Source: a virus
DNA: 64,000 bases
Virus record (IMG/VR): IMGVR_UViG_3300028573_000011
Coordinates: 1 to 64,000 of that record
Reading direction: 5' to 3' (one strand)
Within the stretch, counting starts at the first letter, position 1, and each line of letters starts with the position of its first letter. The notes beneath the pieces were generated by a model, which saw only the letters and a list, made by a program, of their open reading frames with translations, did not search any database and had not been told where the DNA came from. The position numbers and the translations under genes were made by a program. This document shows, one piece after another, positions 23,094 through 53,595 of the stretch.

Positions 23094-23618
23094 CTACTCC
23101 GCCCGGACGTCCGGGTCGGAGAACTGTGCGTACAGGGCGTCGGCACGCTGCAACGTGCCGGGGAACACCGCGCACACCAGCAGCGCGGCGTCCGGGCCCT
23201 GGTCGCGGACGCGGTCCTGCGCGACGTCCTCGGCGGCCAGCGGCGACAGCGCCCAGACGTGCTCGCAGTACCGCTGGCCGCCGGTGCGCTGGGTCCACTC
23301 CGGGTCGGCCCGGTCGATGACCAGGCCCAGGACGGTCCAGTCGGTGACCTCGAGCTCGTTCATGTCCGGCGTGAGGTTCTTGGCGTCCGCGTTGCGGACG
23401 TCGCGCGGGTCGACGTACAGCGTGTAGCCGTCGGCGGTCGGGACCTTGCCCTCCAGGACGCCGGCGACGTGGAAGCGCGCGCCGGCCTCGGCCGCGCTCA
23501 TTCGAGCCAGGTCCTCGGCGGCGCGCGCCGACGTCGCCGTGTACCGGTCGCCGAAGCGCTCCTGGTTGTGCGGGAAGTACCCGAAGACGCTGAACTCCCG
23601 CTCGTCCAGTCCCGTCAT
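23094..23618 (-). CDS. Small soluble protein, unknown function
   Basis: 174 residues, last gene of the 29.5-23.1 kb operon, coupled by ATGA to the lipoprotein gene. Begins DEREFSVFGYFPHNQERFGD, then YTATSARAAEDLARMSAAEA (a helix) and a beta-rich end. This layout resembles the small proteins of mycobacteriophage early regions with a VFGYF-type start. Function unknown. Confidence 0.62.
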   Translation of the reverse strand: MTGLDEREFSVFGYFPHNQERFGDRYTATSARAAEDLARMSAAEAGARFHVAGVLEGKVPTADGYTLYVDPRDVRNADAKNLTPDMNELEVTDWTVLGLVIDRADPEWTQRTGGQRYCEHVWALSPLAAEDVAQDRVRDQGPDAALLVCAVFPGTLQRADALYAQFSDPDVRAE

Positions 23619-24244
23619 CGTCGGCCCCCGCGCAGGGACCCGCCGGAGATGCCGCCGCTGCTGGTCCGGGAGCCGCTGGTGCCGCCGATGGTCGTCTTGG
23701 AACCGCCGGTGGTGCCCGTCCCGGACTTGGAGCCGCCGGTCACGCTGCCCGAGGTGCCGCCGCGCAGGGATCCGCCGCCCATTGTCCCGACCGAGCCGCT
23801 GCCCGAGCCGAACTTCAGCTTGGCCGTCGACGGACCGGTCACCGTCTTGCCGGTGCTGGTCTTGTAGACCGCGGTCTTGGCCGCTGCGGTGATCTGCTTG
23901 GAGTACGTCGTGTGGAACACGGTCTCGGTGTGCACGTAAACGGTCCGGTGCGCCGGAAGCACGTAGACGTTGTAGTAGGCCGGGCTGTCGTAGTACGCGA
24001 AGTACTCCTCCTGCCACGACAGCGGCGCCCGGGTCGGGATCCAGCCGGCGGGGCAGCGGCCGTCGGCCAGCATCTGCTGGGCCTCGTACGGGTCGTCGAG
24101 GTAGTAGCAGCGGCCGACGCCGTTGATGACCTGGCCGGCGGCGACCGGGACGAGAGTGGGCTGCGACCCGCTGGAGCAGCCACCGAGGGTGACACCGAGG
24201 AGGATGGCCAGCGCCAGCAGCAGCGCGCGCAGGGTCTTCTTCAT
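23615..24244 (-). CDS. Secreted lipoprotein with Ser/Gly/Thr-rich tail
   Basis: 209 residues. Type II signal peptide: MKKTLRALLLALAILLGVTL then lipobox GGC. The folded part (~30-130) has Cys pairs (RCYYLDDPYEAQQ, GRCPAGWIP) and many Tyr. From ~140 on it is a repetitive Gly/Ser/Thr tail (GGTSGSVTGGSKSGTG), flexible and likely surface-exposed. It could anchor to or block the cell surface. No family recognised. Confidence 0.7.
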   Translation of the reverse strand: MKKTLRALLLALAILLGVTLGGCSSGSQPTLVPVAAGQVINGVGRCYYLDDPYEAQQMLADGRCPAGWIPTRAPLSWQEEYFAYYDSPAYYNVYVLPAHRTVYVHTETVFHTTYSKQITAAAKTAVYKTSTGKTVTGPSTAKLKFGSGSGSVGTMGGGSLRGGTSGSVTGGSKSGTGTTGGSKTTIGGTSGSRTSSGGISGGSLRGGRR

Positions 24245-24789
24245 GAGGCACGCGTTCCTTCGGTGCGCCACAGCGCACGGCCGTTGTTGCGTCCGGTGAA
24301 CCAGTCCGGGAGTTCGGCCCATGCTTGGCCGAACAGAGCCTCCAGGCCCTCAGGGCTCTCGGCGAGGATGTCGCGGCACAGGCCGGCGACGGCGCGTGCG
24401 TCGGCGAGGAGAACCCCGGGGTCAGCCGTCTCGTGGTCGTCCGGCCAGGAGTAGGTCGCGCCGGCCGTCTTCGCGAGCTCCTTGACGCGGGCCTCGAGCG
24501 CGTCGAGCCGGTCGTAGGAGAAGTGCGCCAACCGGGGGTCGTCTCGGTACTGCGCCGCGACGTCGGCGCGATAGATCACGCGCGCACGAGCTTCCATCGT
24601 CCGGGCCGCGTACTCGCGGGCGAGCGTCTCGTCCTGGTAGGGCTCAGGGCCGGCCGCGTCGCGCTGACAGGGCTCGCACACCACGGCGGTTTCGGGTGGT
24701 GCGCCAGGATCGCACTCGGGGGCGTGGTTGTCCACGCCGTGGTGTGCTGTGCACACATAGTGGCAGCGCCGGACGGCGGTATCGGTCAT
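24241..24789 (-). CDS. Cys/His-rich protein with C-terminal LPDWxTG motif
   Basis: 182 residues. The N-terminus looks like a zinc finger (CHYVCTAHHGVDNHAPEC then CEPCQRD). Helices follow (LAREYAARTMEARARVIYRA, LDALEARVKELAKTA). The end LPDWFTGRNNGRALW is close to LPDWLTGDGTGRALW at the end of the protein encoded at 32175-32705, so the two share a tail module. Coupled to genes on both sides by four-base overlaps. Confidence 0.62.
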   Translation of the reverse strand: MTDTAVRRCHYVCTAHHGVDNHAPECDPGAPPETAVVCEPCQRDAAGPEPYQDETLAREYAARTMEARARVIYRADVAAQYRDDPRLAHFSYDRLDALEARVKELAKTAGATYSWPDDHETADPGVLLADARAVAGLCRDILAESPEGLEALFGQAWAELPDWFTGRNNGRALWRTEGTRAS

Positions 24790-25199
24790 GCTCGGGTTCC
24801 CTTCTTGATCGATTCGGTGGACTTCCCGACGGCGGGTGCCGCGGGCTCCTCGGCGAGCGTCAGGCCCTTCAGTGCGAGCGCCGTTTCGATCTCGTTGAGG
24901 CGGTTCAGCCCGAGGCCTCGGATGTCGAGCAGGTCGTCGCGGGTTCGGGTGAGCAGCTGCGCGATGGTGCCGATCCCGCCGCGCCAAAGCGCGCCCTGGG
25001 CCGGGTCGGGCAGATTCAGGTCGCGCAGGTCGCTGACCATGAGGCTGGCCGTGGAGAACACGGCGCGCAGGTCTGCGACGGAGATGCGGATCCGGAATGC
25101 CGCGTCGCAGACGATCTCGACGCCGTCCCGGTCGCACCGGTCCAGCGCCAGACCGATCCGGTCGAGCGGAGTTACGGCAGAGACGTTGCTATCCGGCAT
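24786..25199 (-). CDS. RNA polymerase alpha-CTD-like protein 1
   Basis: 137 residues from the ATG at 25199 (GGAGG eight bases upstream; a GTG at 25208 is less likely). N-terminal ~60 residues form a small beta-rich domain with IGLALDRCDRDGVEIVCD. The C-terminal part DLNLPDPAQGALWRGGIGTI then AQLLTRTRDDLLDIRGLGL and NEIETALALKGL follows the helix-hairpin-helix plan of the RNA polymerase alpha C-terminal domain. The DNA-contacting Arg and Asn of true alpha-CTD (RSxN) are not conserved here, so it may bind protein rather than DNA. Overlaps its paralogue by 11 bases. Confidence 0.72.
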   Translation of the reverse strand: MPDSNVSAVTPLDRIGLALDRCDRDGVEIVCDAAFRIRISVADLRAVFSTASLMVSDLRDLNLPDPAQGALWRGGIGTIAQLLTRTRDDLLDIRGLGLNRLNEIETALALKGLTLAEEPAAPAVGKSTESIKKGTRA

Positions 25200-25626
25200 G
25201 GCTGTCACCTCCCGCAGGATCGGTTGTCGCCATGCACTCGAGGGTGGCGGCCAGCTCGTCGGCGAGCGCCCGTTGGAGCATGGCCTCGGCGCGCTGGAAC
25301 CTGATCTGTGCCGTCAGCAGGTTGCTGTAGGCCGCATGGCATACGGCTTTGAGCTCGGGGATGCTCGTGCCGGTCTGGGCCGGCTCAGCCTCAGCCGGTT
25401 CCGGCGGCGCGAGGAGGTCCAGCCCGGCGGCTTCCATCGTGTGGAGGATGTCTGCCAGGGACGTTGCGCCCAGGCCCTTCAGCGCGGCGAGTTCAGTGAC
25501 GCTGAGCTTCGTGAGCTGGCCGATGGTGGTGATGTCACTGTTAGTCAGTGCGTTGTAGGAGCGCGGGAGCAGGCCCAGTTCGACGATGTGGTCGCCCGGC
25601 CGAAGCGCGGTGTCGGTGTCAGCCAT
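25189..25626 (-). CDS. RNA polymerase alpha-CTD-like protein 2
   Basis: 145 residues. Residues ~8-70 align from memory with bacterial RpoA C-terminal domain: LRPGDHIVELGLLPRSYNAL, then TIGQLTKLSVTELAALKGLG and SLADILHTMEAAGLDL. The key RSxN (Arg265 and Asn268 in E. coli numbering) is present, the usual Lys of GKKS is replaced (GATS). After a Pro/Ala linker comes a helical C-terminal region (LKAVCHAAYSNLLTAQIRFQ). A free alpha-CTD could compete for UP elements, activators or anti-terminators of host polymerase. Sits in the early operon beside the DnaB-like gene. Confidence 0.82.
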   Translation of the reverse strand: MADTDTALRPGDHIVELGLLPRSYNALTNSDITTIGQLTKLSVTELAALKGLGATSLADILHTMEAAGLDLLAPPEPAEAEPAQTGTSIPELKAVCHAAYSNLLTAQIRFQRAEAMLQRALADELAATLECMATTDPAGGDSHAG

Positions 25627-26023
25627 GGTCGTCGCTCACCGCCCCACTCAGCGCACAGACGTGGAGCTCGGCGAAGCGCGCGAGGTCGACGAGCGTCCAG
25701 GCGTGCCCGGTGGTGCGGTAGCCGCAGTTGCGGCATCCGATCTCGACGGCGCCCTGCTGGGCGCGCACGTCGAAGTCGCGGATAGTGCCGGCGCTGATGG
25801 CGCGGATCGGGCTGTCGGGCCACTCGACGGCGATGATCGCCTCGGTGAGGGTGTTGGCCAGGCGGTTGCGGACCAGGTTCGCGGCGCTGTAGCCGAGGCC
25901 GGAGAACCGCGGGTCGTCGCGGACGATCTGGCCGAGGGCGTCCCAGTCGACGGCCCGGACTGCGCGGGTGACGAGCTCGATGGCGACGGCTTGGACAAGG
26001 TCGTTGTCGGGCAGGTCGTTCAC
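25619..26023 (-). CDS. Small protein with CRNC zinc-like motif, unknown
   Basis: 134 residues; GTG at 26023 overlaps the previous stop (GTGA). N-terminal helices (LVQAVAIELVTRAVRAVDWD), LTEAIIAVEWPDSP, then a beta region with IGCRNCGYRTTGHAWTLVDL. The late CxxC with Trp/His looks like a small zinc ribbon. Between alpha-CTD-like and other unknown genes. Confidence 0.6.
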   Translation of the reverse strand: MNDLPDNDLVQAVAIELVTRAVRAVDWDALGQIVRDDPRFSGLGYSAANLVRNRLANTLTEAIIAVEWPDSPIRAISAGTIRDFDVRAQQGAVEIGCRNCGYRTTGHAWTLVDLARFAELHVCALSGAVSDDHG

Positions 26024-26358
26024 GGCCGACTGCCGTTCGTGATCGACGGTGCCTGCCGCCGCTGGATCGAGCCGTGGATGTGCTCGCCGATGACACCGAC
26101 GAGGGCCGCGACATACTCGCCGACCAGGTAGTCGGTGACGGTCTCCCGCCGCCGCAGTTCGGGCAGCAGGTGCGGGAGGTAGTGACCCAAGTGCAGCAGG
26201 ATCTTGGCGACGTGCTCCTCGGGGACGTCGGGCAGCTCCTGGCGGAGGACGGCGGCGAGGCGCGATGCGGGATCGGCCAGGGTGTCGGCCATGGCCCGGC
26301 GTCGGCGCAAGTTGTCGCGGACGGCGATGGCGAGGGCGTCGGTGGACCGCTCGGGCAT
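26020..26358 (-). CDS. Small helical protein, unknown function
   Basis: 112 residues, nearly all helix: STDALAIAVRDNLRRRRAMA, PASRLAAVLRQELPDVPEEH, VAKILLHLGHYLPHLLPELR, TVTDYLVGEYVAALVGVIGE. No membrane segment long enough to be sure. Probably a helical bundle, family not recognised. Confidence 0.55.
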   Translation of the reverse strand: MPERSTDALAIAVRDNLRRRRAMADTLADPASRLAAVLRQELPDVPEEHVAKILLHLGHYLPHLLPELRRRETVTDYLVGEYVAALVGVIGEHIHGSIQRRQAPSITNGSRP

Positions 26359-26360
26359 GA

Positions 26361-27215
26361 TCAGTCTCCTGTCGGGACAACAACGAGAGCGCCCAAGCGC
26401 TGTGCACACCGGTGATCGGCGATGCGCGTCAGCAGCTCGGCGGCGTCGAGTTCGTAGGGATCGGCGGGGCCGCCGAAGGGCCAGGCGCCGCAGGGATCGT
26501 GGCGGACGTAGGCATACGCGCGACCGTCGTCGTCGATGTCGCCGCGGATGCTGAACTCGGCGGGCGCGAGCGCTTTCGCGGCCGGCGTCGCGCGGGCGCC
26601 GAGCTTGGCCAGGGCGATGAGTTCGCGCATCTCGCTGACCTTCAGGGTCTTGCGATCGGGGTCGCGTTCCCACGGTGTCGTGGCCGCGATGTGGTTCCAA
26701 CCTGCGGCGGTGAAGACGTCGACGAACGTCTGGACTCGCGCGACGACGTCGGTGTCGTCGTCGGGTTGCCCGGCGCCCATGGCTTCGCCGGCCGCCCGGT
26801 TGGCTGCGGCCTCGCCTGCCGTCGTACCGGTCCAGTCGGACCAGGTTCCGGTGGTTTCGTCGAGCACCTGGGTGTCGAAGCCCTCGACGGGCTCGGGGTC
26901 ATCGCCGTCGCGGCCGGTGCCGATGAGCCACCAGGTGGTACGGACCCGGTACGTCCCGTACTGGTCGCCGGCGGGCCACCAATGGCGGTGCGGGTCATGG
27001 GCGAACCAGCAGCTCGCGCCCGGGGGCAGCGTTTCGCACTGGGCCGAGTGGCCCACCTCGTAGAGGTTGTGCAGGCCCGGGTCGAAGGGGTGGTCGCCCT
27101 GGAACAGCCGCAAGGTGTGCCAGGCGAAGGCCGCGCCGGTGCTGCTGGAGTAGCTGTCGTCGTCCTCGGCGGAAGCGCGCAGCGCCTTGACCACGTTCTC
27201 AGTGGGATTCGCCAT
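26361..27215 (-). CDS. Early protein with Trp-rich centre, unknown function
   Basis: 284 residues from the ATG at 27215 (a GTG two codons earlier overlaps the upstream stop). Contains SCWFAHDPHRHWWPAGDQYG and YRVRTTWWLIGTG, then a helical part (AAGEAAANRAAGEAMGAG) and a C-terminal helical domain ending YELDAAELLTRIADHR. Several other early proteins of this operon share the style of a Trp/Tyr-rich beta domain plus acidic regions. Role unknown. Confidence 0.6.
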   Translation of the reverse strand: MANPTENVVKALRASAEDDDSYSSSTGAAFAWHTLRLFQGDHPFDPGLHNLYEVGHSAQCETLPPGASCWFAHDPHRHWWPAGDQYGTYRVRTTWWLIGTGRDGDDPEPVEGFDTQVLDETTGTWSDWTGTTAGEAAANRAAGEAMGAGQPDDDTDVVARVQTFVDVFTAAGWNHIAATTPWERDPDRKTLKVSEMRELIALAKLGARATPAAKALAPAEFSIRGDIDDDGRAYAYVRHDPCGAWPFGGPADPYELDAAELLTRIADHRCAQRLGALVVVPTGD

Positions 27216-27217
27216 GA

Positions 27218-28102
27218 TCACTCACCGGCCCTGGGCGTCTGCGCGTCAGCTGCGGTCGGGGAAACCGGTTCGGGATCGACCATGGGCACGATGCGTCCGA
27301 AGTGCCCCTGGAACGCGGCGGTCAGCACGGCTGTCGGACCGCTGCGATGCTTGGCCAGGATCAGATCGACCTCACCGAGGCGCGGGGTGTCGCGCTTGTC
27401 GGTGTCGGGGCGGTGGACGAGGATCACGAGGTCCGCGTCGTGTGCGTAGGTGTGGCGTGCCCCAAAGTCGGCCAGAGTGGGCGGGTCGTAGTAGTTCTTC
27501 GGCGTGCGGGGCGCCAGGTGAGTGGTCACGATGACGTGCATCTGGCGGTTGATGGCCCAGGCCTTCAGGAGGTGGGATGCCGCTGCGGTCCGCTCGTGGA
27601 TCAGGCGCGGGTCGGAACCGGCGTCGAGCAGGTCAACGCCGTCGATCACCAGGAGCTCGGGGGCGCCGTCGTCGTAGGCATCGAGGTACCTCTCGATGTC
27701 GGCGAAGGTGAGGGGGCTGTCGAGGATCAGCGGCAGCGGTTCGGCCTGGATGCGCTTGCGGGTCGCCTCCATCCGGGCGGCCTCGGCCGGCGCGGACACA
27801 CCGGCGGTGATCCAGTGCATGGCCACCTGGGATTCGGCGGCAGCGAAACGCCGAGCGGTGTCGTCGACCGAGCTCTGCAGGGCGGCGAAGTAGGTCTCGC
27901 GCTTGGCGGCAACGGCGGCGCGGGTGAGAGTGAGGGCGAGGGTGCTGCATCCGTGACTGGGCCGTCCGGCGATGACGGTGAGGTGTCCGGGCTGCAAGCC
28001 GCCCGTGAGGGTGTCGAGGTCGGGGAAGCCGGTAGGGATCCCAGCGGCGATGCTGTGGAGACCGTCGGTGACGGCATCGTGAATGTTGTGTGAGAGATCC
28101 AT
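27218..28102 (-). CDS. DnaB-like RecA-fold protein with altered Walker A
   Basis: 294 residues, only the C-terminal ATPase half of replicative helicase DnaB: GIPTGFPDLDTLTGGLQPGH, then LTVIAGRPSHGCSTLALTLT in the Walker A place, Walker B ELLVIDGVDLL and later DLVILVHRPDTDKR and LAKHRSGPT, which fit DnaB motifs H3 and H4. The Walker A lysine is a cysteine (GCS, codon TGC), so normal ATP hydrolysis is doubtful. It may be a helicase accessory or a decayed helicase. Overlaps the next stop by one base (TGATG). Confidence 0.8.
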   Translation of the reverse strand: MDLSHNIHDAVTDGLHSIAAGIPTGFPDLDTLTGGLQPGHLTVIAGRPSHGCSTLALTLTRAAVAAKRETYFAALQSSVDDTARRFAAAESQVAMHWITAGVSAPAEAARMEATRKRIQAEPLPLILDSPLTFADIERYLDAYDDGAPELLVIDGVDLLDAGSDPRLIHERTAAASHLLKAWAINRQMHVIVTTHLAPRTPKNYYDPPTLADFGARHTYAHDADLVILVHRPDTDKRDTPRLGEVDLILAKHRSGPTAVLTAAFQGHFGRIVPMVDPEPVSPTAADAQTPRAGE

Positions 28103-28641
28103 CAGGCGTCCTTGGACTCGGGATTGATGTGGGATGCGCCAGCGGCAGCGCGCGCCGCGTCTGCGGCGGCCAGGTCGTACTCGGTCCAGCCATCGGCCCA
28201 CTGGGCGGGGCCCATGGCGGCGCTGATCCAGTCGTTGCCCGGGAAGGCGTGTGCCTCGAAGCCGAACGCGCGCGGCTCGTTCTTGGCGGGATGCTTGGCC
28301 AGCACGACGCAGGAGAAGATCTCGAGCAGCTCGGGAGGCGTCCACGGCGCGCGCCGGATGTAGGTCTTGCCGTCCTCGAAGAAGTCCGGCGTCTCCGGGG
28401 CCGCGGCCTGCTCGGCCAGGGCGACCTTCCGCATGAAGCGCTCGCTGACGTCAGCAGGAGTGCGCGCTCGGATCGCCAAGGCCTCCGGGGAGCCGAGACT
28501 CGACGCGGCGAGCAGCTCATCGAAGTCATCGACGGCGGCGCGGAGCGTCTTGGCCGGGAGCTCGAACAACTCGGACTCGGGGTAGGCGTCCAGCCAGCCG
28601 CGGATCTCTTCGATGGCGGTCGACGGGTCCGTGGCCGCCAT
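28102..28641 (-). CDS. Early protein, unknown function
   Basis: 179 residues. N-terminal helices (TAIEEIRGWLDAYPESELFE, LRAAVDDFDELLAASSLGS), a middle segment (FFEDGKTYIRRAPWTPPELL, EIFSCVVLAKHPAKNEPRAF) and an Ala-rich acidic C-terminus. Head-to-tail with the DnaB-like gene and probably co-translated. No family recognised. Confidence 0.58.
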   Translation of the reverse strand: MAATDPSTAIEEIRGWLDAYPESELFELPAKTLRAAVDDFDELLAASSLGSPEALAIRARTPADVSERFMRKVALAEQAAAPETPDFFEDGKTYIRRAPWTPPELLEIFSCVVLAKHPAKNEPRAFGFEAHAFPGNDWISAAMGPAQWADGWTEYDLAAADAARAAAGASHINPESKDA

Positions 28642-29468
28642 CAGAGGTCGTCCCGCCCCACTCGGGTCATGGGGCCGAAGTGCTGCTGGACCTCGTTGGC
28701 GTTGGCGTCGCCGGGGTGGAGGGTGCGCAGCGTTCCGTTGGGGAGCGTCACCCAGGGGTCGCCCTCGCTGTCGCGCCAGAAGGTGCCGCCGGGGCCCGGG
28801 AACTGCGGCACGACAGGCTCGGGCTGGCCGACGCGGGTGATCGGCTTCTCATCGACGTAGATGTACTCGTCGCTGACAGCGCCGTTGGCACCCGACAGAA
28901 CCACCCAGGCCGCGTACTCGCCGGGCGTGGTTCCGGGGGCGATCGGGATCTCGCCCTGGGCGACCTGGTCGAAGGCGCAGGTCTCGCCGTACGGGAGACG
29001 GTCGCAGTCCGGTCCGTGGGTGATCGTGTAGTTCCAGGTGCCGTCGGCACGCTGGTCGCTGACGACGATGGTGTGGATCGCGAAGGGGTTCGGCTCGGGC
29101 TCGTGGCCGGCGCGCCAGGCCAGCAGCTGGTTCACGAACCAAGTGGACGTGGCGGCCTTGACGAGGCCGACGCGCGGGTTCCGCTCGGGGTCGTCGTCGA
29201 CCTCGTCAGTGAAGTACACGTCGTGGTCCGTGAGCAGCTGGTCCAGGAGGATCGCGCTGCCGGTGCCAGGCATCGTGATCACGCGGTCAACGAACGCTTC
29301 GGCCCAGGCCTGGTTGTAGGCGGCGCGCTCCTGGGGCGTGATGTTCGCCGGCCAGGTCATGCTCAGGGCCGCGCGGAGCACGTCGGCCGCGTTCGGGGCG
29401 TTGGTGACCAGCAAGTCCATGGACTGCCTGGGGTCGCTCAGGGGCGCTTCGACGGTGGTGTCGGTCAT
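28641..29468 (-). CDS. Early protein, first gene of the operon, unknown
   Basis: 275 residues, GAAGGA before the ATG. N-terminal helix NAADVLRAALSMTWPAN followed by helical turns (ERAAYNQAWAEAFVDRVI), then a beta-rich C-terminal half (TIVVSDQRADGTWNYTITHG, IPIAPGTTPGEYAAWVVLSG, FWRDSEGDPWVTLPNGTLRT). The last part looks like a small WG/DUF-type beta domain. It opens the operon that contains the DnaB-like and alpha-CTD-like genes. Role unknown. Confidence 0.6.
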   Translation of the reverse strand: MTDTTVEAPLSDPRQSMDLLVTNAPNAADVLRAALSMTWPANITPQERAAYNQAWAEAFVDRVITMPGTGSAILLDQLLTDHDVYFTDEVDDDPERNPRVGLVKAATSTWFVNQLLAWRAGHEPEPNPFAIHTIVVSDQRADGTWNYTITHGPDCDRLPYGETCAFDQVAQGEIPIAPGTTPGEYAAWVVLSGANGAVSDEYIYVDEKPITRVGQPEPVVPQFPGPGGTFWRDSEGDPWVTLPNGTLRTLHPGDANANEVQQHFGPMTRVGRDDL

Positions 29469-35811: not shown

Positions 35812-37098
35812 TCAGCGCCGGTGCTCCAGCGCTGCGTACTGTTCGCGGGTCCAGCCGAAGGACCAGGCCGCGGCCGCGACTGGGTCGGCGAAGTGGCCGG
35901 GGACGGTCAGGCCGAAGCGGCGGCGGGTACCGTCGCGCTCGGTGGAACCGTTGGTACACAGAAGAACGCGCACGTGGGCCCGGTAGACACGGCTGGGTAC
36001 GTCGTACAGCGCGAGTTCCTGGCCCGGGTTGCCGGGGTCCGGGACGGGCAGGCCGACGGGCACCATGGCAGCCTGGTCGATGAACCGGTCCCAGCCGAGG
36101 CGTTCGATGGCAACGCGTCGGATCTCGGTGTTGCGCTCGGCCAGGATCTTGTCGCTGGGCCACTCGGGGCCTTCGATGAGGTCGGCTGGGACTTGGGTGC
36201 CGTGCCAGGCGTGGATGCCCCATCCGTCGCGGTAGGCCACGGCTGGGCCCTTGTCGGCGTGAAGCTGTTGCTGATCGTCCAAATGGATGGACTCGGGTCG
36301 GTCGCAGATCACGACGGTGTCCTGGAAGGGCCACCAGGGGCCGGCGTTGCTGGCGATCAGCATCTCCGCGTGGAGCGCCGGCTTGTTGGGCTCGAACTTC
36401 GCCGGCGGAACCCCGTCGATCAGGGGCCCGCTGAGACGCGACCGGTTCCACGGCATGGGCAGGTACTCGGACATCTCCCTGGCTCGCCGCCGGTCCTCGG
36501 CTCCCATTCGCGCGATGAGCTCGCAGCGGGTCAGCCTTTCGGCATCGAACTGCCCCGGGTGCACGCGGAGTCTGCGGAGTGCGTAGTAGAGATCAGCGTC
36601 TCTGGCTGATCGAAGGTCGAAGCCCACCTGAAGAGTAGTCTCGCGATTCGGAATGACCGCGTTTGTGAGCTGGGCTCCGATGGGCCGGATGAAGTCGGCC
36701 GCGAGCATGCCTGAGACCCTGCTGGCCCACCAGACATTTTCGGTGTTGTAAAAGCCCTGTCGTTCGTGTGGTGGCAGGAGTACGTCCCAGGGCAGCGGCT
36801 GGTCGTGCGCGAGGAGGCATTTTTTGACGAGGCGGACGGCGTCGGCGGGCGAGGTGGCCCATTCGATCCAGGGCTGTCGCTGCTCGCGGGCCCGGTAGAA
36901 GTCGCTGATCCCGATCTCGGCCAGCTGCCGGTTGGCGGGCTCGGTGGACAGACCCCAGGTCCGCCACGTCCGGCTGAGTTCCTGGGCCCGGGTCGCCGGA
37001 TCCAGGTAGCGGTGAAGAGGCACCCACGCCTCGCGGGCCGACCAGTACGGCGAGAGGGGCGGCCGGGTCGAACTGTTGGGGATCGGTTCCGACGTCAT
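35812..37098 (-). CDS. DUF6745-like protein, copy 1
   Basis: 428 residues. The C-terminal ~220 residues hold the block shared with the two genes upstream: GPWWPFQDTVVICDRPESIH, YRDGWGIHAWHGTQVPADLI, RRVAIERLGWDRFIDQ, VPDPGNPGQELALYDVPSRV and the end TREQYAALEHRR. Conserved Trp/Asp/Gly/His residues suggest an enzyme or binding fold, but the biochemical role of DUF6745 is unknown to me. The N-terminal half is more divergent. Head-to-tail with copy 2. Confidence 0.75.
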   Translation of the reverse strand: MTSEPIPNSSTRPPLSPYWSAREAWVPLHRYLDPATRAQELSRTWRTWGLSTEPANRQLAEIGISDFYRAREQRQPWIEWATSPADAVRLVKKCLLAHDQPLPWDVLLPPHERQGFYNTENVWWASRVSGMLAADFIRPIGAQLTNAVIPNRETTLQVGFDLRSARDADLYYALRRLRVHPGQFDAERLTRCELIARMGAEDRRRAREMSEYLPMPWNRSRLSGPLIDGVPPAKFEPNKPALHAEMLIASNAGPWWPFQDTVVICDRPESIHLDDQQQLHADKGPAVAYRDGWGIHAWHGTQVPADLIEGPEWPSDKILAERNTEIRRVAIERLGWDRFIDQAAMVPVGLPVPDPGNPGQELALYDVPSRVYRAHVRVLLCTNGSTERDGTRRRFGLTVPGHFADPVAAAAWSFGWTREQYAALEHRR

Positions 37099-37137
37099 CA
37101 GGAGCCTCGATTCGGGTGGCGGGGGTGGCCGGCGGGT

Positions 37138-38307
37138 TCAGCGGCGATGTTCCAGGGCTGCGTACTGCTCGCGGGTCCAGCCGAACGTCCAGGCGGCGGC
37201 TTCGACCGGGTCCGTGAAGCCTGCGGGGACGGTGAGACCGAACCGCCGGCGCGTGCCGTCGCGCTCGAGAGAGCCGTTCGTACAGACCAGAACGAGAACC
37301 GGCCTGTCGTAGATGCGGACGGCGGGGACGTAGAGGCGTAGTTCCTGGCCTGGGTTGCCGGGGTCCGGGACTGCCGGCCCGAGGGGCTGCAGGATGTCGG
37401 ACTCGACGAAGCGGTCCCAGCCGATGCGTTCGATCGCAGCTCGGCGCACCTCAACGTTCCGCTGGGTGAGAACCTGCTCGGGGGTCCAAGGCGGCCCTTC
37501 AATGAGGCTGGCCGGGACGACGGTGCCGTGCCAGGCGTGGACGCCCCAGCCGTCGGGGTAGCGCACGGCCGGACCGTTGTCGGCGTGGAGGCGCAGCTCA
37601 GGGTCGAAATGGATGGCTGTGGGGCGTTCGCTGATGATGACGATGCTTTCGAAAGGCCACCAGGGGCCGGCGCTTCGAGCGATCTGCAGCAGCGCGTGCC
37701 AAGCGCCGTAGTGCACCGCTGAGATGGATGCCTCTTCCTTCACCAGCTCCAGTTCGTAGCGGGCGAGAGCCTCGGCATCGAACTGGCCCGGCACGACGGC
37801 ATGGCCCTTCATCCGCAGAGTGTGGAACGGGCCTAACGTCATGTTGGCGGTCAGGTCGGTCGCGGCCAGGACCTGTTCGCCGACCTGGCGGGCGGCTCGG
37901 AGCGGACGGAGCTGCTGTTGCACCAGTCCCCAGTTGATCCGGTGGTTCCGGCCAAGGACGTACAGCTCTGATTCGGGCGTGAGATCTTCGCGGGCGCACG
38001 GCCACGCTGTGCCCTGCGCCACGGCGTAGTCCGCTGCTCTGTGCGCCGCGTGGGGCGAGTCGGCCCAGATGATGCGCGGTTTCTGTCTGCCGCCCAGCTG
38101 CCTGAAGGCATAGAGGTCGATGATCGCCCGTTCGGCCGCGTCCCGGTCGGCGGGGTCCGTGGACAATCCTCGCTTGGCCCACCACGCGGCACTGTCGAGG
38201 TACCTGAGCGTGTCGTCGGAGTACTCGCGGAGGTACTTGGCGAAGTACTGCTCGACCAGCGGCGGGACCAGCTGGTCGGGTTGCGTCTCGGGCTGTGGGT
38301 CTGTCAT
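37138..38307 (-). CDS. DUF6745-like protein, copy 2
   Basis: 389 residues. Same C-terminal block (GPWWPFESIVIISERPTAIH, RYPDGWGVHAWHGTVVPASL, VPDPGNPGQELRLYVPAVRI, VLVCTNGSLERDGTRRRFGL). The N-terminal half has a helical region with LSTDPADRDAAERAIIDLYA, matching LSTEPANRQLAEIGISDFYR in copy 1. So the whole protein is paralogous, not just the tail. Confidence 0.75.
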   Translation of the reverse strand: MTDPQPETQPDQLVPPLVEQYFAKYLREYSDDTLRYLDSAAWWAKRGLSTDPADRDAAERAIIDLYAFRQLGGRQKPRIIWADSPHAAHRAADYAVAQGTAWPCAREDLTPESELYVLGRNHRINWGLVQQQLRPLRAARQVGEQVLAATDLTANMTLGPFHTLRMKGHAVVPGQFDAEALARYELELVKEEASISAVHYGAWHALLQIARSAGPWWPFESIVIISERPTAIHFDPELRLHADNGPAVRYPDGWGVHAWHGTVVPASLIEGPPWTPEQVLTQRNVEVRRAAIERIGWDRFVESDILQPLGPAVPDPGNPGQELRLYVPAVRIYDRPVLVLVCTNGSLERDGTRRRFGLTVPAGFTDPVEAAAWTFGWTREQYAALEHRR

Positions 38308-38372
38308 GGGTCCTCGCTTCGGATGGTGGAGGCTTCACGGTCAGCGCGCGCCGTGACTGGCGCCGCGGTGGA

Positions 38373-39695
38373 TCAGCGGCGGTGCTCCAGGGCGGCGTAG
38401 TCGTCGCGATCCCAGCCGAAGGTCCAGGCCGCGGCTTCGACCGGGTCGGTGAAGCGGGCCGGGACGGTCAGACCAAAGCGCCGACGCGTGCCATCGCGCT
38501 CCTCGGAGCCGTTCGTGCACAGCAGGACACGTACGGGGTTGCGGTAGATCCGGCCGGGCACGTCGTACAGCGCGAGCTCCTGGCCGGGGTTCCCCGGGTC
38601 CGGGACAGGGGCACCCACGGGCGCCAGCTTCGCGTCTGCGATGAACCGGTCCCAGCCGATGCGCTCGACGGCCGCGCGGCGGACCTCGGTGTTGGGGTGG
38701 GTCAGGATCTGCTTTGCGGTCCAGCCGGGCCCGTCGATCAGGTCGGCGGGGACAGGCGTGCCGTGCCAGAAGTAGACGCCCCAGCCGTCCGGGTAGACCA
38801 CGGCGGGGCCGTCCTCGGCGTGAGGACGCTCCTGCTGGTCCATCAGGATGCCGCTGGGGCGCTCGCAGGCGATGACCAGCTTGTCAAAGGGCCACCAAGG
38901 TCCGGCGCTGCGCGCGATTTTTGCCAGGGCGTCCAGGGCAGCGCTGCGGGGTCGGTTCGGGCGGGCCCGCTTGCCGACCTCGTGCAGAGCGAAGCTCTCG
39001 GCGTCGAACTGCCCGGGGATCAGCGGAGGGCCGTCCTTGCTGGCAAAGCGGACGAGCGTTCCTGCGGGCGACGTTGCCAGTGCTGCGCGGAAGACCTCGC
39101 GGCCGATCTGACCCACCAGCTGCAGGTTGGCCGTAGTCCCGAGCATGAACCTCCAGAGAACGTCGGTTCCCCCGACCAGCGCCTTGTATTCGTTGTCAGG
39201 CATGAGCTCGTCGCGTGACAGGCTTCTGGCATCAGCAGCGGCGATCACGGCCTTGTAGATTCCGACTGCGGCACGGGGTGACTGCGCCCAGATGATCTGG
39301 GACGGCTGTGGCAGCCCGCGCGCCTGGTACACCTTGCGGATACCGGCCTCGGCCGTGGCACGATCGGCGGGCTCGGTCGACAGCCCGGCTTTCGCCCACC
39401 GCGCGGTGGTGCTCGTTGAGATGCTCACGTCTCCGAAAGCCTCCACAGTGCTGAAGAACACGGGCAGGTCGAATTCCACGGAGAAATCCATCGTCGAGGG
39501 CAGCAGCGCACCTCTGTGATCGACGTTCCATGACACCGGCGTGTTGACGCCCGGGATCAGAACGGGTGGTGACGGGCTCACCGCGCCCGCGTGCTTCCGG
39601 GAGCGACGCCGGTGGCGGTGCAGGCCGACGGCCCCGGCGGCGGCACCGGCCGCTGCTGTGACGAAGGGCGCGACAGTGAGGATGGCGGTGATCAT
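38373..39695 (-). CDS. DUF6745-like protein, copy 3, with N-terminal membrane helix
   Basis: 440 residues from the ATG at 39695, which overlaps the stop before it (TGATG). Unlike copies 1 and 2 it begins with a hydrophobic helix (MITAILTVAPFVTAAAGAAA) and a basic stretch (LHRHRRRSRKHAG), so it is probably membrane-anchored. The body repeats the family block (GPWWPFDKLVIACERPSGIL, YPDGWGVYFWHGTPVPADLI, VPDPGNPGQELALYDVPGRI). Gain of an anchor by one paralogue suggests divided roles. Confidence 0.75.
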   Translation of the reverse strand: MITAILTVAPFVTAAAGAAAGAVGLHRHRRRSRKHAGAVSPSPPVLIPGVNTPVSWNVDHRGALLPSTMDFSVEFDLPVFFSTVEAFGDVSISTSTTARWAKAGLSTEPADRATAEAGIRKVYQARGLPQPSQIIWAQSPRAAVGIYKAVIAAADARSLSRDELMPDNEYKALVGGTDVLWRFMLGTTANLQLVGQIGREVFRAALATSPAGTLVRFASKDGPPLIPGQFDAESFALHEVGKRARPNRPRSAALDALAKIARSAGPWWPFDKLVIACERPSGILMDQQERPHAEDGPAVVYPDGWGVYFWHGTPVPADLIDGPGWTAKQILTHPNTEVRRAAVERIGWDRFIADAKLAPVGAPVPDPGNPGQELALYDVPGRIYRNPVRVLLCTNGSEERDGTRRRFGLTVPARFTDPVEAAAWTFGWDRDDYAALEHRR

Positions 39696-42481: not shown

Positions 42482-43135
42482 TCAGGGGCTGCCGCTGGCG
42501 ACGAGCCCGGCGGCTGGCGACGTCGAGTCGGCGCCCCAGGGACGGCCCGGGTCCCGCAGGCCCGCGGTGACGAGCGCGCTGAGGATGGCGGGAAGGGTCG
42601 CGTCTCCTATCCCGGGCCGGCTGCGCAGGTCGGCGTCAGAGGCGGCCATGAGTTCGGCGACGGTGTGGATGCCGGCCCGGCGCAGCCGGTTGTGCACCTT
42701 GACGGGCAGCGCGAGCGTCCACAGCGGGGCGTCGGGGTTGAGGGGCGTCTGCGGGGCCGCCAGCTGGGCGGCCCGGGCCGCGCGCGAGGTGTCCCGGAGC
42801 GCGTGGGTCGGCGGTGTGCCCAGCATCAGGGGCGCGTGCACGGCGGGAGGCGTAGCCCGAATCGCGTCTCGCGCCTGGGCCAGGGCCCGCTTGCCGTACG
42901 CGGTGATCATCAATCCCCCGCGTTGGCGCTCAAGGAACCCGTCGCGCACTAGGTAGCTGGCAACATTCGCGACGTGGTTGGCGGACCGGCCGATGCGCAG
43001 CGCGATCTCGGCGGGTCGCGCGCAGGGCTGCTTGGCGCACGCCGACAGCAGCAGGTAGTCCATCCCGTTCAGCCCGAGGTGCCTCAGGCGGTAGGTGTCG
43101 GCGTGGCGCTGCTGGGTGCCGGGGAGTGTGGTCAC
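42482..43135 (-). CDS. Winged-HTH protein fused to an alpha-CTD-like domain
   Basis: 217 residues from a GTG coupled to the RusA gene. N-terminal MarR/ROK-type winged helix (ACAKQPCARPAEIALRIGRS, NHVANVASYLVRDGFLERQR). The C-terminal ~60 residues, LWTLALPVKVHNRLRRAGIH then TVAELMAASDADLRSRPGIG and ILSALVTAGL, follow the alpha-CTD pattern, with Lys in place of Arg265 but the Asn kept. A DNA-bound protein that presents an alpha-CTD-like surface could recruit or block polymerase parts. Confidence 0.7.
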   Translation of the reverse strand: MTTLPGTQQRHADTYRLRHLGLNGMDYLLLSACAKQPCARPAEIALRIGRSANHVANVASYLVRDGFLERQRGGLMITAYGKRALAQARDAIRATPPAVHAPLMLGTPPTHALRDTSRAARAAQLAAPQTPLNPDAPLWTLALPVKVHNRLRRAGIHTVAELMAASDADLRSRPGIGDATLPAILSALVTAGLRDPGRPWGADSTSPAAGLVASGSP

Positions 43136-45822: not shown

Positions 45823-46395
45823 TCAGATCGCGTCGGCCGGCAGCAGGCGGGCCAGGCTTCGGACGGCTCGGTATTGCAGGGTCTTGACGGCGCCTTCCTG
45901 CTTGCCCATGATCTCGGCGGTCTCGGTGACGGACTTCTGTTCGAGGAAGCGCAGCGTGACGCACATCTGCTGCTGCTCGTTGAGCCGTTTGACGGCGCTG
46001 CGGAGTACGCAGTTGTCCAGGTACGTCACGATGGCGTCCTCGGTCGACGGCTCCAGCTCATCGCCGTCGAGCATTTCGCCGGTCGAGACCTCCCGGCGGT
46101 GGCGACTCGACTTGAAGTTGTCCGCGATGAGGTTGCGGGCGATGGTGATGAGCCACGCTCCGAGGTCCTTGCCCTGCCAGCTGAAGGTGGTGATCCGGCA
46201 CAACGCGCGGACGAACGTCTCGCTGGTGAGGTCTTCGGCCAGCGGACGGGTGGCGACGCGGTAGTAGATGAAGCGGAACACCGTGTCGCGGTAGGCGACA
46301 TACAGCTCGCCGAAGGCTTCTCGGTCGCCGGCCTGGGCAGCCGTGACGATCTCCACCATTCGCTCGTGCGCGAGCACCTGGGTGCGGTCAGTCAT
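45823..46395 (-). CDS. ECF-type RNA polymerase sigma factor
   Basis: 190 residues. Region 2: DREAFGELYVAYRDTVFRFI, YRVATRPLAEDLTSETFVRA, then FSWQGKDLGAWLITIARNLI. Region 4: MCVTLRFLEQKSVTETAEIM, GKQEGAVKTLQYRAVRSLAR. No region 1 or 3, so an ECF sigma factor that directs RNA polymerase to its own promoters. Overlaps the preceding membrane-protein gene by eight bases. Together with the alpha-CTD-like proteins it suggests the element controls its own transcription. Confidence 0.9.
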   Translation of the reverse strand: MTDRTQVLAHERMVEIVTAAQAGDREAFGELYVAYRDTVFRFIYYRVATRPLAEDLTSETFVRALCRITTFSWQGKDLGAWLITIARNLIADNFKSSRHRREVSTGEMLDGDELEPSTEDAIVTYLDNCVLRSAVKRLNEQQQMCVTLRFLEQKSVTETAEIMGKQEGAVKTLQYRAVRSLARLLPADAI

Positions 46396-52185: not shown

Positions 52186-53595
52186 ATGGCGTGGATCGAG
52201 ACTACCGAGCGCAAGGCCAAGCCGGGGCAGAAGAAGAAGCCCCTCTCCTACCATGTCCGCTGGCGCCAAGGCGGCGCCCGGGACGGCGGCAGCGAGGTCG
52301 AGACCTTCCGGGACGAGAAGGAGGCCGAACACTTCAAGGCCGCAGTCAACCTCGCCGGTGACCAGTACCCCCCCAACTTCATCCCGAAAATCGGCTGGGT
52401 CACGCCCGACGTGTACAAGGCGTTCCTCGTCGACGTCGAGGCCGCCGAGACGGAAGCCGAGCAGCCACCGCCGCCCGAGACGATCGGCGCGTTCGCCCGG
52501 AAGCTCGTACTGAGCATGACCAAGGTCGGGCGGGGCGGAAAGAAGAAGTACCTACGGATAATCGCTCTCCACATCAATCCCTGGTGGGGATCCCTCCCGA
52601 TCAATGACGAGGCAACCCTCAACATGATCGGCATCGGCACGTGGATCAACGATCTGCTGGACGGCAAATCACCCCCCGTCGACCAGACGCCGCAAGATCC
52701 GCACCCGAAGCGCACGAAGCTCAAGCCGAAGACCGCCCGGAACATCCACGGTCTCTTCTTCGCGATCATCCAGACCGCGCTGGAGATGAAGCTGCGGGCC
52801 GACAACCCGTGCCTGAAGACACAGCTGCCGAACGTCGATGACGGCGAAGGCGACTGGGAGATGGTCTTCCTGTCCCCCGAGGAGTACGGCATGATCCGTC
52901 GCCACATGCGCGCCGACGCGGTGGATCTCACGGACCTACTTGTCGGCACCGGGGCTCGCTACTCAGAGGCCACGGGCTTCCGAAAGCGCGACCACGTCCA
53001 TGACGAGACCGGCCGACCCTGGCTCAACGTGCGCAAGGCGTGGAAGAACGAGGCCGGCAACTGGGTCTTGAGCAAGCCCAAGACGCGGAAGTCCGTACGC
53101 GGGCTCGTTCTCACCGCAAGCCAGGACGAACTGGTTGCCAGACTCACGGAGGGCAAGCAGCCCGACGACCTGGTCGTCACGAACCGGGGTGGCAACCGAT
53201 GGATTCACCAGACCTACTACACACAGTGCTGGCGCCCGGCGGTCTATTGCGCGGTCCGCTGCGAACGGCACAGGAACGCCGACCTGGCCGCGGGTATCGG
53301 ACGTCGCGGCTATCGGTACCTGCTTTCCGCGCACATCGTGCCCTGTGGATGTCCGGGCACGCTCACGAAGGTCCCGCGCATCCACGACCTACGGCACACT
53401 CACGTAGCGTGGCTGATCGCCAAGAAGGTCCCGGTGAAGGCGATCCAGGAGCGGCTCGGCCATCGATCGAGCCAGACTACGTTGGACCGCTACGGGCACC
53501 TGCTGGATGAGGTCGTCGACGACGTCCAGGCTGCAGTCGACGTGATGATGGAGCGGGCAGCCGTGGACGTGGCCCAGCTGCCCGCCGCAGCCTAG
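52186..53595 (+). CDS. int: Tyrosine-family site-specific integrase
   Basis: 469 residues from the ATG at 52186. N-terminal arm-binding part (SYHVRWRQGGARDGGSEVET), a SAM-like core-binding part (FARKLVLSMTKVGRGGKKKY) and the catalytic domain with Arg258 (TGARYSEATG), H400-x-x-R403 (HDLRHTH), His426 and Tyr436 (GHRSSQTTLDRYGHL). All catalytic residues are present. It lies 139 bases after the attP core and reads away from it. It recombines this attP with a tRNA gene in the host. Confidence 0.93.
   Translation: MAWIETTERKAKPGQKKKPLSYHVRWRQGGARDGGSEVETFRDEKEAEHFKAAVNLAGDQYPPNFIPKIGWVTPDVYKAFLVDVEAAETEAEQPPPPETIGAFARKLVLSMTKVGRGGKKKYLRIIALHINPWWGSLPINDEATLNMIGIGTWINDLLDGKSPPVDQTPQDPHPKRTKLKPKTARNIHGLFFAIIQTALEMKLRADNPCLKTQLPNVDDGEGDWEMVFLSPEEYGMIRRHMRADAVDLTDLLVGTGARYSEATGFRKRDHVHDETGRPWLNVRKAWKNEAGNWVLSKPKTRKSVRGLVLTASQDELVARLTEGKQPDDLVVTNRGGNRWIHQTYYTQCWRPAVYCAVRCERHRNADLAAGIGRRGYRYLLSAHIVPCGCPGTLTKVPRIHDLRHTHVAWLIAKKVPVKAIQERLGHRSSQTTLDRYGHLLDEVVDDVQAAVDVMMERAAVDVAQLPAAA

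Follow-up and report, generated by a model that had tools for sequence, protein, structure and literature searches.

We found that two overlapping genes of a temperate tailed phage, g39 and g38, are predicted to encode the C-terminal domain of the alpha subunit of RNA polymerase (alpha-CTD), an assignment that is well supported by sequence family and by modelled structure. The alpha-CTD is the part of the bacterial polymerase that is contacted by activators and by upstream promoter DNA. The explanation that we consider best supported, at a probability of roughly 55%, is that g39, g38 and a third gene, g66, form a set of RpoA-derived transcription modulators that would act on host transcription. 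It draws on three scores over the cut-off of family PF03118, on matches to RpoA in the PDB and on models that resemble RNA polymerase; on the retention of DNA-contacting residues in g39 and the absence of R265, N268, K298 and S299 from g38, which yet keeps the fold; and on the fusion of alpha-CTDs to transcription domains in other phages, together with an ECF sigma factor encoded by the same phage.

The phage and its operon

The window, the whole stretch of DNA analysed here, corresponds to bases 1 to 64,000 of an IMG/VR virus record of 95,441 bases (95.4 kb) with a G+C content of 0.70, for which 133 genes were called with a simple codon-usage script. The PHROGs names found among the ten proteins that were scanned included tape measure, major head protein, large terminase, head maturation protease, exonuclease VIII, DNA methyltransferase, sigma factor and integrase, the last of these (52186..53595, plus strand; phrog_1, E 2.8e-38) pointing to a temperate life style. 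The DNA is that of a temperate tailed phage, and the plasmid life that the first-pass annotation had entertained is not needed. The nearest terminases were those of Arthrobacter phages (about 31% identity) and the nearest exonucleases those of Gordonia phages (about 40% identity); the host is probably an actinobacterium.

Both reading frames lie on the minus strand where they had been placed, g39 (initially copy 2; 145 aa) at 25189..25626 and g38 (initially copy 1; 137 aa from an ATG) at 24786..25199. A GTG would provide an alternative start for g38 (24786-25208, 140 aa), but the ATG at 25199 is the better one, with a good ribosome-binding sequence (GGGAGGTGACAGCC) ahead of it. The operon that had been proposed around the two genes proved to be tight: in the single-strand run from g45 to g35 (23094..29468, minus strand) adjacent genes either share 1-11 nt or are separated by no more than 2 nt (gaps of -11 to +2 nt). 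The same operon contains g43 (27218..28102, minus strand), encoding a protein with a DnaB-like helicase C-terminal domain (PF03796, 120.7 bits for the 295-aa form), which would also be compatible with a role in replication. A scan for promoters and terminators near the operon was uninformative (one promoter-like site, on the opposite strand, and two terminator-like sites versus 2.3 expected by chance). Elsewhere in the window, three successive genes (35812-39695, minus strand) have C-terminal halves that are alike; the first matched DUF6745 and the other two were linked to it by eye.

Family, fold and DNA-contact surface

A search of the 95.4-kb record with PF03118 (RNA_pol_A_CTD; Pfam curated cut-off 23.8 bits) identified three places, all over the cut-off: g39 (45.9 bits, E 4.7e-12), g38 (31.9 bits, E 1.1e-7) and g66 (32.5 bits). 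The general helix-hairpin-helix (HhH) family HHH_5 (PF14520, cut-off 27 bits) stayed below its cut-off for g39 (13.2 bits) and g38 (14.3 bits), and just below it for g66 (25.4 bits). The best PDB sequence matches were the RpoA C-terminal domain of 4noi for g39 (1.8e-7) and the RpoA C-terminal region of 5vi8, chain T, for g38 (2.7e-7). The reported resemblance to alpha-CTD is far beyond chance. No Pfam family corresponding to the N-terminal dimerisation and assembly domain of RpoA was found in g38, g39 or g66.

The AlphaFold2 models, which do not count as evidence separate from the sequence since the aligned relatives had been picked by an alpha-CTD motif, were confident over the domains, with a mean pLDDT of 88.6 for g39 (28 aligned sequences; ten-residue blocks of the domain at 95-98) and of 79.5 for g38 (26 aligned sequences; domain blocks at 94-96). 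For both proteins all 50 Foldseek matches listed were RNA polymerase entries. The g39 model superposed on 3n97, a complex of alpha-CTD and sigma region 4 with DNA, at 0.8 A over 62 residues and, over about 60 residues, on the E. coli alpha-CTD of 3n97 and 1lb2 (0.8-0.9 A); for the g38 model the best matches, to these entries and to chains related to them, reached about 0.8-1.1 A. Structure prediction had been proposed beforehand as a check, and it returned RNA polymerase rather than an unrelated fold or a plain HhH. For these two proteins, on which both programs were run, the predicted fold is that of alpha-CTD, and a plain HhH repair domain was ruled out as the best description by the PF03118 and HHH_5 scores together with the fold. 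Chance resemblance or a misread frame is a negligible prospect in view of the E-values, the gene-like composition, the tight operon and the fold, and is refuted by the PF03118 scores and the Foldseek matches.

Two NCBIfam models gave weak signals. The polymerase beta' model PRK14906 matched g38, and the model of the BREX protein PglW matched g39 locally (16.8 bits, E 0.001) and also g38 and g66. The latter would fit proteins that counter a host defence which itself uses an alpha-CTD-like domain, like the PglW kinase of BREX/Pgl systems, but the match lies far below the cut-off (990 bits), all the RpoA models listed for these two proteins, g39 and g38, score higher in bits, and we regard such a role as very improbable.

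In g39 the alpha-CTD-like domain (residues 13-72; 25411..25590, minus strand) is followed by a low-confidence linker and a predicted C-terminal helix (residues 89-134). All four strings attributed to this protein are present (LRPGDHIVEL, RSYNAL, IGQL and LKGLG), but the first is not in the register of RpoA, its LRP lying, by our count, three residues further from R265 than in E. coli RpoA; a similar start occurs in L054, a small viral protein described below. The C-terminal helix might tether g39 to another protein, although such tethering is unsupported: its amphipathic and coiled-coil patterns were not significant (shuffled sequences scored equally high in 2216 of 5000 and 697 of 5000 cases), and a coiled coil was dropped as its identity. 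In g38 the domain (24843..25031, minus strand) is preceded by about 55 residues, modelled at low confidence as helix, beta hairpin and helix.

The two domains differ at R265, N268, N294, G296, K298 and S299, which we take, in E. coli numbering, to form the DNA-binding (265) determinant. Equivalents of R265, N268, G296 and S299 are retained in g39 (four of six), with K298 replaced by T and N294 by G. The determinant is lost in g38 (one of six identical), where R265 is replaced by P, N268 by G, N294 by G, K298 by N and S299 by R; the V-R-S-Y-N of RpoA reads D-P-A-Q-G here, and the first-pass annotation was right that this copy lacks RSxN yet keeps the fold, as AlphaFold2 and Foldseek bear out. 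With K, N, G, A and T at positions 265, 268, 294, 298 and 299, g66 has two of six. The K298 to T replacement also occurs in 6 of 30 sampled actinobacterial RpoAs, whereas N294 is present in all 30 and is G in all three phage proteins, as in the general HhH hairpin. At D259 and E261, presumably sigma-contact positions in the same numbering, g39 has E and G and g38 has D and N, unlike the E. coli pair, though E, G and N are found there in sampled RpoAs. The residues at 294 and at 259/261 would count against a function in transcription.

The main alternative is that these domains, though derived from alpha-CTD, now serve only as generic HhH modules for binding the minor groove in replication, repair or repression, without touching the polymerase. 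The G at position 294, which makes the hairpin GxG in all three proteins as in generic HhH domains, the HHH_5 score of g66, the DnaB-like helicase in the operon and the occurrence of alpha-CTD-like domains in viral proteins with no obvious role in transcription (a very long frame and a NinX-domain protein, see below) all speak for it. We nevertheless find it somewhat doubtful, as HHH_5 is far outscored by PF03118 for g38 and g39, the structural matches are RNA polymerase entries, and the loss of the DNA surface in g38 would be hard to explain if DNA binding were the sole job.

The distribution of conserved positions is consistent with a split of roles in which g39 would bind DNA and g38 a partner. 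Compared with 29 distinct actinobacterial RpoAs, the mean identity in helix 1 (264-273) is 47% for g39 and 21% for g38, and in residues 285-293 the order appears to be reversed (31% and 41%, respectively), each figure being based on 9-10 positions. These figures and the overlap of the two genes, which makes them translationally adjacent, favour a narrower form of the transcription-modulator explanation, in which g38 acts as a decoy, occupying a host activator or sigma factor where the host's own alpha-CTD would bind and so preventing activated transcription, and forms a hetero-complex with g39, its partner for DNA binding; given the few positions behind the identities, we hold this specific form to be rather unlikely.

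A third gene, and relatives in viruses and cells

The third gene, g66 (42482..43135, minus strand; 217 aa), encodes a winged-helix-like N-terminal domain followed by an alpha-CTD (residues 136-188). Its N-terminus matched MarR (20.2 bits) and wHTH-PRTase_assc (22.2 bits), both below cut-off. Near g66 we found genes for a GntR-type HTH protein, a LuxR-type HTH protein and g70 (45823..46395, minus strand), an ECF-type factor of the sigma-70 family with regions 2 and 4 (PF04542, 51.8 bits, and PF08281, 40.7 bits, both over cut-off). The general sigma70-ECF model TIGR02937 supports this assignment of g70 (88.6 bits over a cut-off of 42.9), whereas the nearest NCBIfam model, TIGR02952 of the BldN family, does not extend to it (193.6 bits, below 206.45). 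Matches to g70 were seen in 19 of 50,697 phage records, for instance in Streptomyces phage Gilgamesh (33%).

The three domains are not a recent family, judging by their sequences. BLASTP gave no alignment between the domains of g38 and g39, which rules out a recent tandem duplication; g38 is closer to g66 (36%, 28.1 bits). The 'duplicated pair' of the first-pass annotation is therefore neither duplicated in this sense nor a pair, the record having three such genes. In a tree g39, g38 and g66 took three different places, but resolution was poor, with 43 of the 88 inner branches open, and the tree does not show their origin.

Close relatives of the individual proteins were scarce. PHROGs gave one weak and uninformative family for g39 (E 0.15), none for g38 and none at 0.01 for g66. 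Single-protein scans of viral contigs found no close relatives of g38, g39 or g66; the same was true of genome contigs for g39 and of a tblastn search of the 50,697 phage records for g38. As these scans of phage records and contigs yielded no relative of g38 or g39 over the whole protein, a conserved neighbourhood could not be read. At the level of the domain the picture was different. With g39, g66 and a mycobacterial alpha-CTD as queries, tblastn of the same phage records gave hits that were annotated as bacterial RpoA or had no annotation, and further hits in Bacillus phage Goe8, four Microbacterium phages, Morganella phage Mecenats66 and Mycobacterium phage Mithril. The first-pass annotation knew of no such duplicated pair in actinophages; proteins of this kind are not unique to this phage, and the four Microbacterium phages carry one as an annotated 'DNA binding protein'.

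Degenerate-codon patterns run over 2.9 million viral contigs returned 13, 8, 44, 1 and 1 stretches, the first three patterns giving 53 distinct domain segments. The first of these requires N268 and G at 294, the second G at 294, and the third N268 and R265, and conservation at such required positions was not counted as evidence. From the 53 segments a set of 49 proteins was compiled, in which 46 loci were kept unchanged, L034 and L036 were taken in a longer form (L222 and L223) and L229 was added, while L013, L014, L015, L025 and L026 were excluded as very long, truncated or weakly matching. PF03118 was present in all 49, and none of the 14 families found in them was the RpoA N-terminal domain. 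Among the partner domains were transcription domains: Sigma70_r4 in five proteins (four over cut-off), HTH_17 in three, an NrdR zinc ribbon in two and a Cro/CI HTH in one. Sigma-70 region 4 joined to alpha-CTD was found over cut-off, on the minus strand of their contigs, in L019 (6863-7606), L043 (6417-7652), L050 (259-1149, with an additional Cro/CI HTH) and L222 (604-1386, with a sub-threshold HTH_17), and below cut-off in L059 (454-1107, plus strand). The NrdR-type zinc ribbon accompanies the alpha-CTD, according to the Pfam scan, in L055 (1275-1811) and L063 (3639-4190), both on the minus strand, and two alpha-CTD-like units per chain occur in L027 (1120-1593, minus), L028 (374-793, plus), L064 (1979-3022, minus) and L058 (897-1631, plus). 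The domain was also seen within a viral frame that exceeds 3,000 residues (L013, 7844-8029, minus strand), which by eye is like a polyvalent injected protein, in a fragment of an L013-like protein (L014, 817-1002, minus strand) and in a NinX-domain protein.

At least two alpha-CTD places were found in 6 of 31 whole virus records, all 31 chosen for having one, and among these six the places lie in separate frames only in G012 (two separate genes) and G017 (a probable terminal repeat). None of the 31 had three. Three separate alpha-CTD genes in one phage are thus unusual, in a biased sample that may include fragments.

In cellular genomes the domain was found mainly where it is expected. Matches to g39 occurred in 213 of 396 genomes from the phylum to which a coriobacterial genome belongs, and in all 30 loci read among them the domain forms the C-terminal end of an open stretch of 312-541 residues, as in RpoA; none of the 30 was a solo chromosomal relative of g39. 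One pattern gave at least 120 matches in genome contigs, mostly from Coriobacteriia among those listed. In this class a frame of about 1,470 residues, as large as RNA polymerase beta', contains an alpha-CTD-like domain close to its C-terminus. Examples are L084 (around 7500-7660) and the majority of the other loci of this pattern, with scores over the Pfam cut-off in the coriobacterial genomes checked.

Proposed action and comparison with known systems

If the three proteins are transcription modulators, they would act at the initiation of host transcription. As a free alpha-CTD, g39 would bind DNA upstream of promoters and possibly sigma region 4, and might thereby favour phage promoters or compete with the alpha-CTD of the host. 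Having lost the DNA-contact surface, g38 would engage only protein partners (an activator, a sigma factor or g39), as decoy or as partner, and g66, by means of its winged-helix-like domain, may recruit an alpha-CTD to a particular DNA site. The pattern of retained and missing residues, like the sigma-region-4 fusions of other phages, agrees with the first-pass suggestion that such proteins work by copying or blocking the alpha-CTD. More tentatively, phages may harbour an undescribed class of transcription regulators in which the host alpha-CTD was lifted from RpoA and recombined with sigma region 4, HTH and zinc-ribbon domains; the three members in this phage, with the ECF sigma factor, could then be a kit for re-routing the host polymerase, with g39 binding DNA, a DNA-blind g38 sequestering activators or sigma factors, and g66 acting site-specifically.

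A free alpha-CTD made by a virus, one form having the DNA surface and another lacking it, would be a directly testable route to rewiring host activation, and the small size of the proteins lends itself to simple binding and transcription tests. The fusions of sigma region 4 and alpha-CTD suggest single-chain readers of promoter-upstream DNA, and the look-alikes in many phages point to a route of viral interference with host transcription that has received little study.

Known phage proteins that target the alpha subunit or sigma region 4 include Alt/ModA and AsiA/MotA of T4 and Rac of the phiKMV type. These proteins modify, cut or bind a host subunit, and to our knowledge none of them is a copy of alpha-CTD. 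Our searches of the open-licence PMC literature showed no description of phage alpha-CTD proteins, whether stand-alone or fused to sigma parts, and the passages seen in two jumbo-phage papers (PMC7824862 and PMC13282480) did not deal with them.

Compared with the C-terminal domain of RpoA, g39 and g38 belong to the same family over cut-off and have a predicted fold within about 1 A. They lack the RpoA N-terminal domain and hence are not complete polymerase subunits, and they differ in having G for N294. Most of the DNA-contact surface is retained in g39, which has its extra part behind the domain and not before it, whereas that surface is absent from g38. The 210-residue product of Goe8_c00050 in Bacillus phage vB_BmeM-Goe8 (our L038), annotated as 'RNA polymerase subunit alpha', is likewise an alpha-CTD without the RpoA N-terminal domain, but it has a different N-terminal part and the canonical N294; the record shows its gene both at 2397 and at 156544, probably because of a terminal repeat. 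Gp26 of Microbacterium phage Mazun (50.5 bits with PF03118) and the corresponding places in Morrill, Atraxi and TrippleS are small and end in an alpha-CTD, but again with another N-terminal part, and with one alpha-CTD place listed per record. The nearest relative of g39 that we found is L054 (77 aa, from IMGVR_UViG_2898615884_000001), which aligns with g39 (42% over 71 residues) and with g38 (47% over 55) and shares with g39 the start PGDxI...L.L.PRxYNAL; unlike g39 it consists of the alpha-CTD only, has the canonical NFG and is the one match in its 84-kb record. The alpha-CTD domain being known and a few phage members being named in databases, these proteins are not categorically new.
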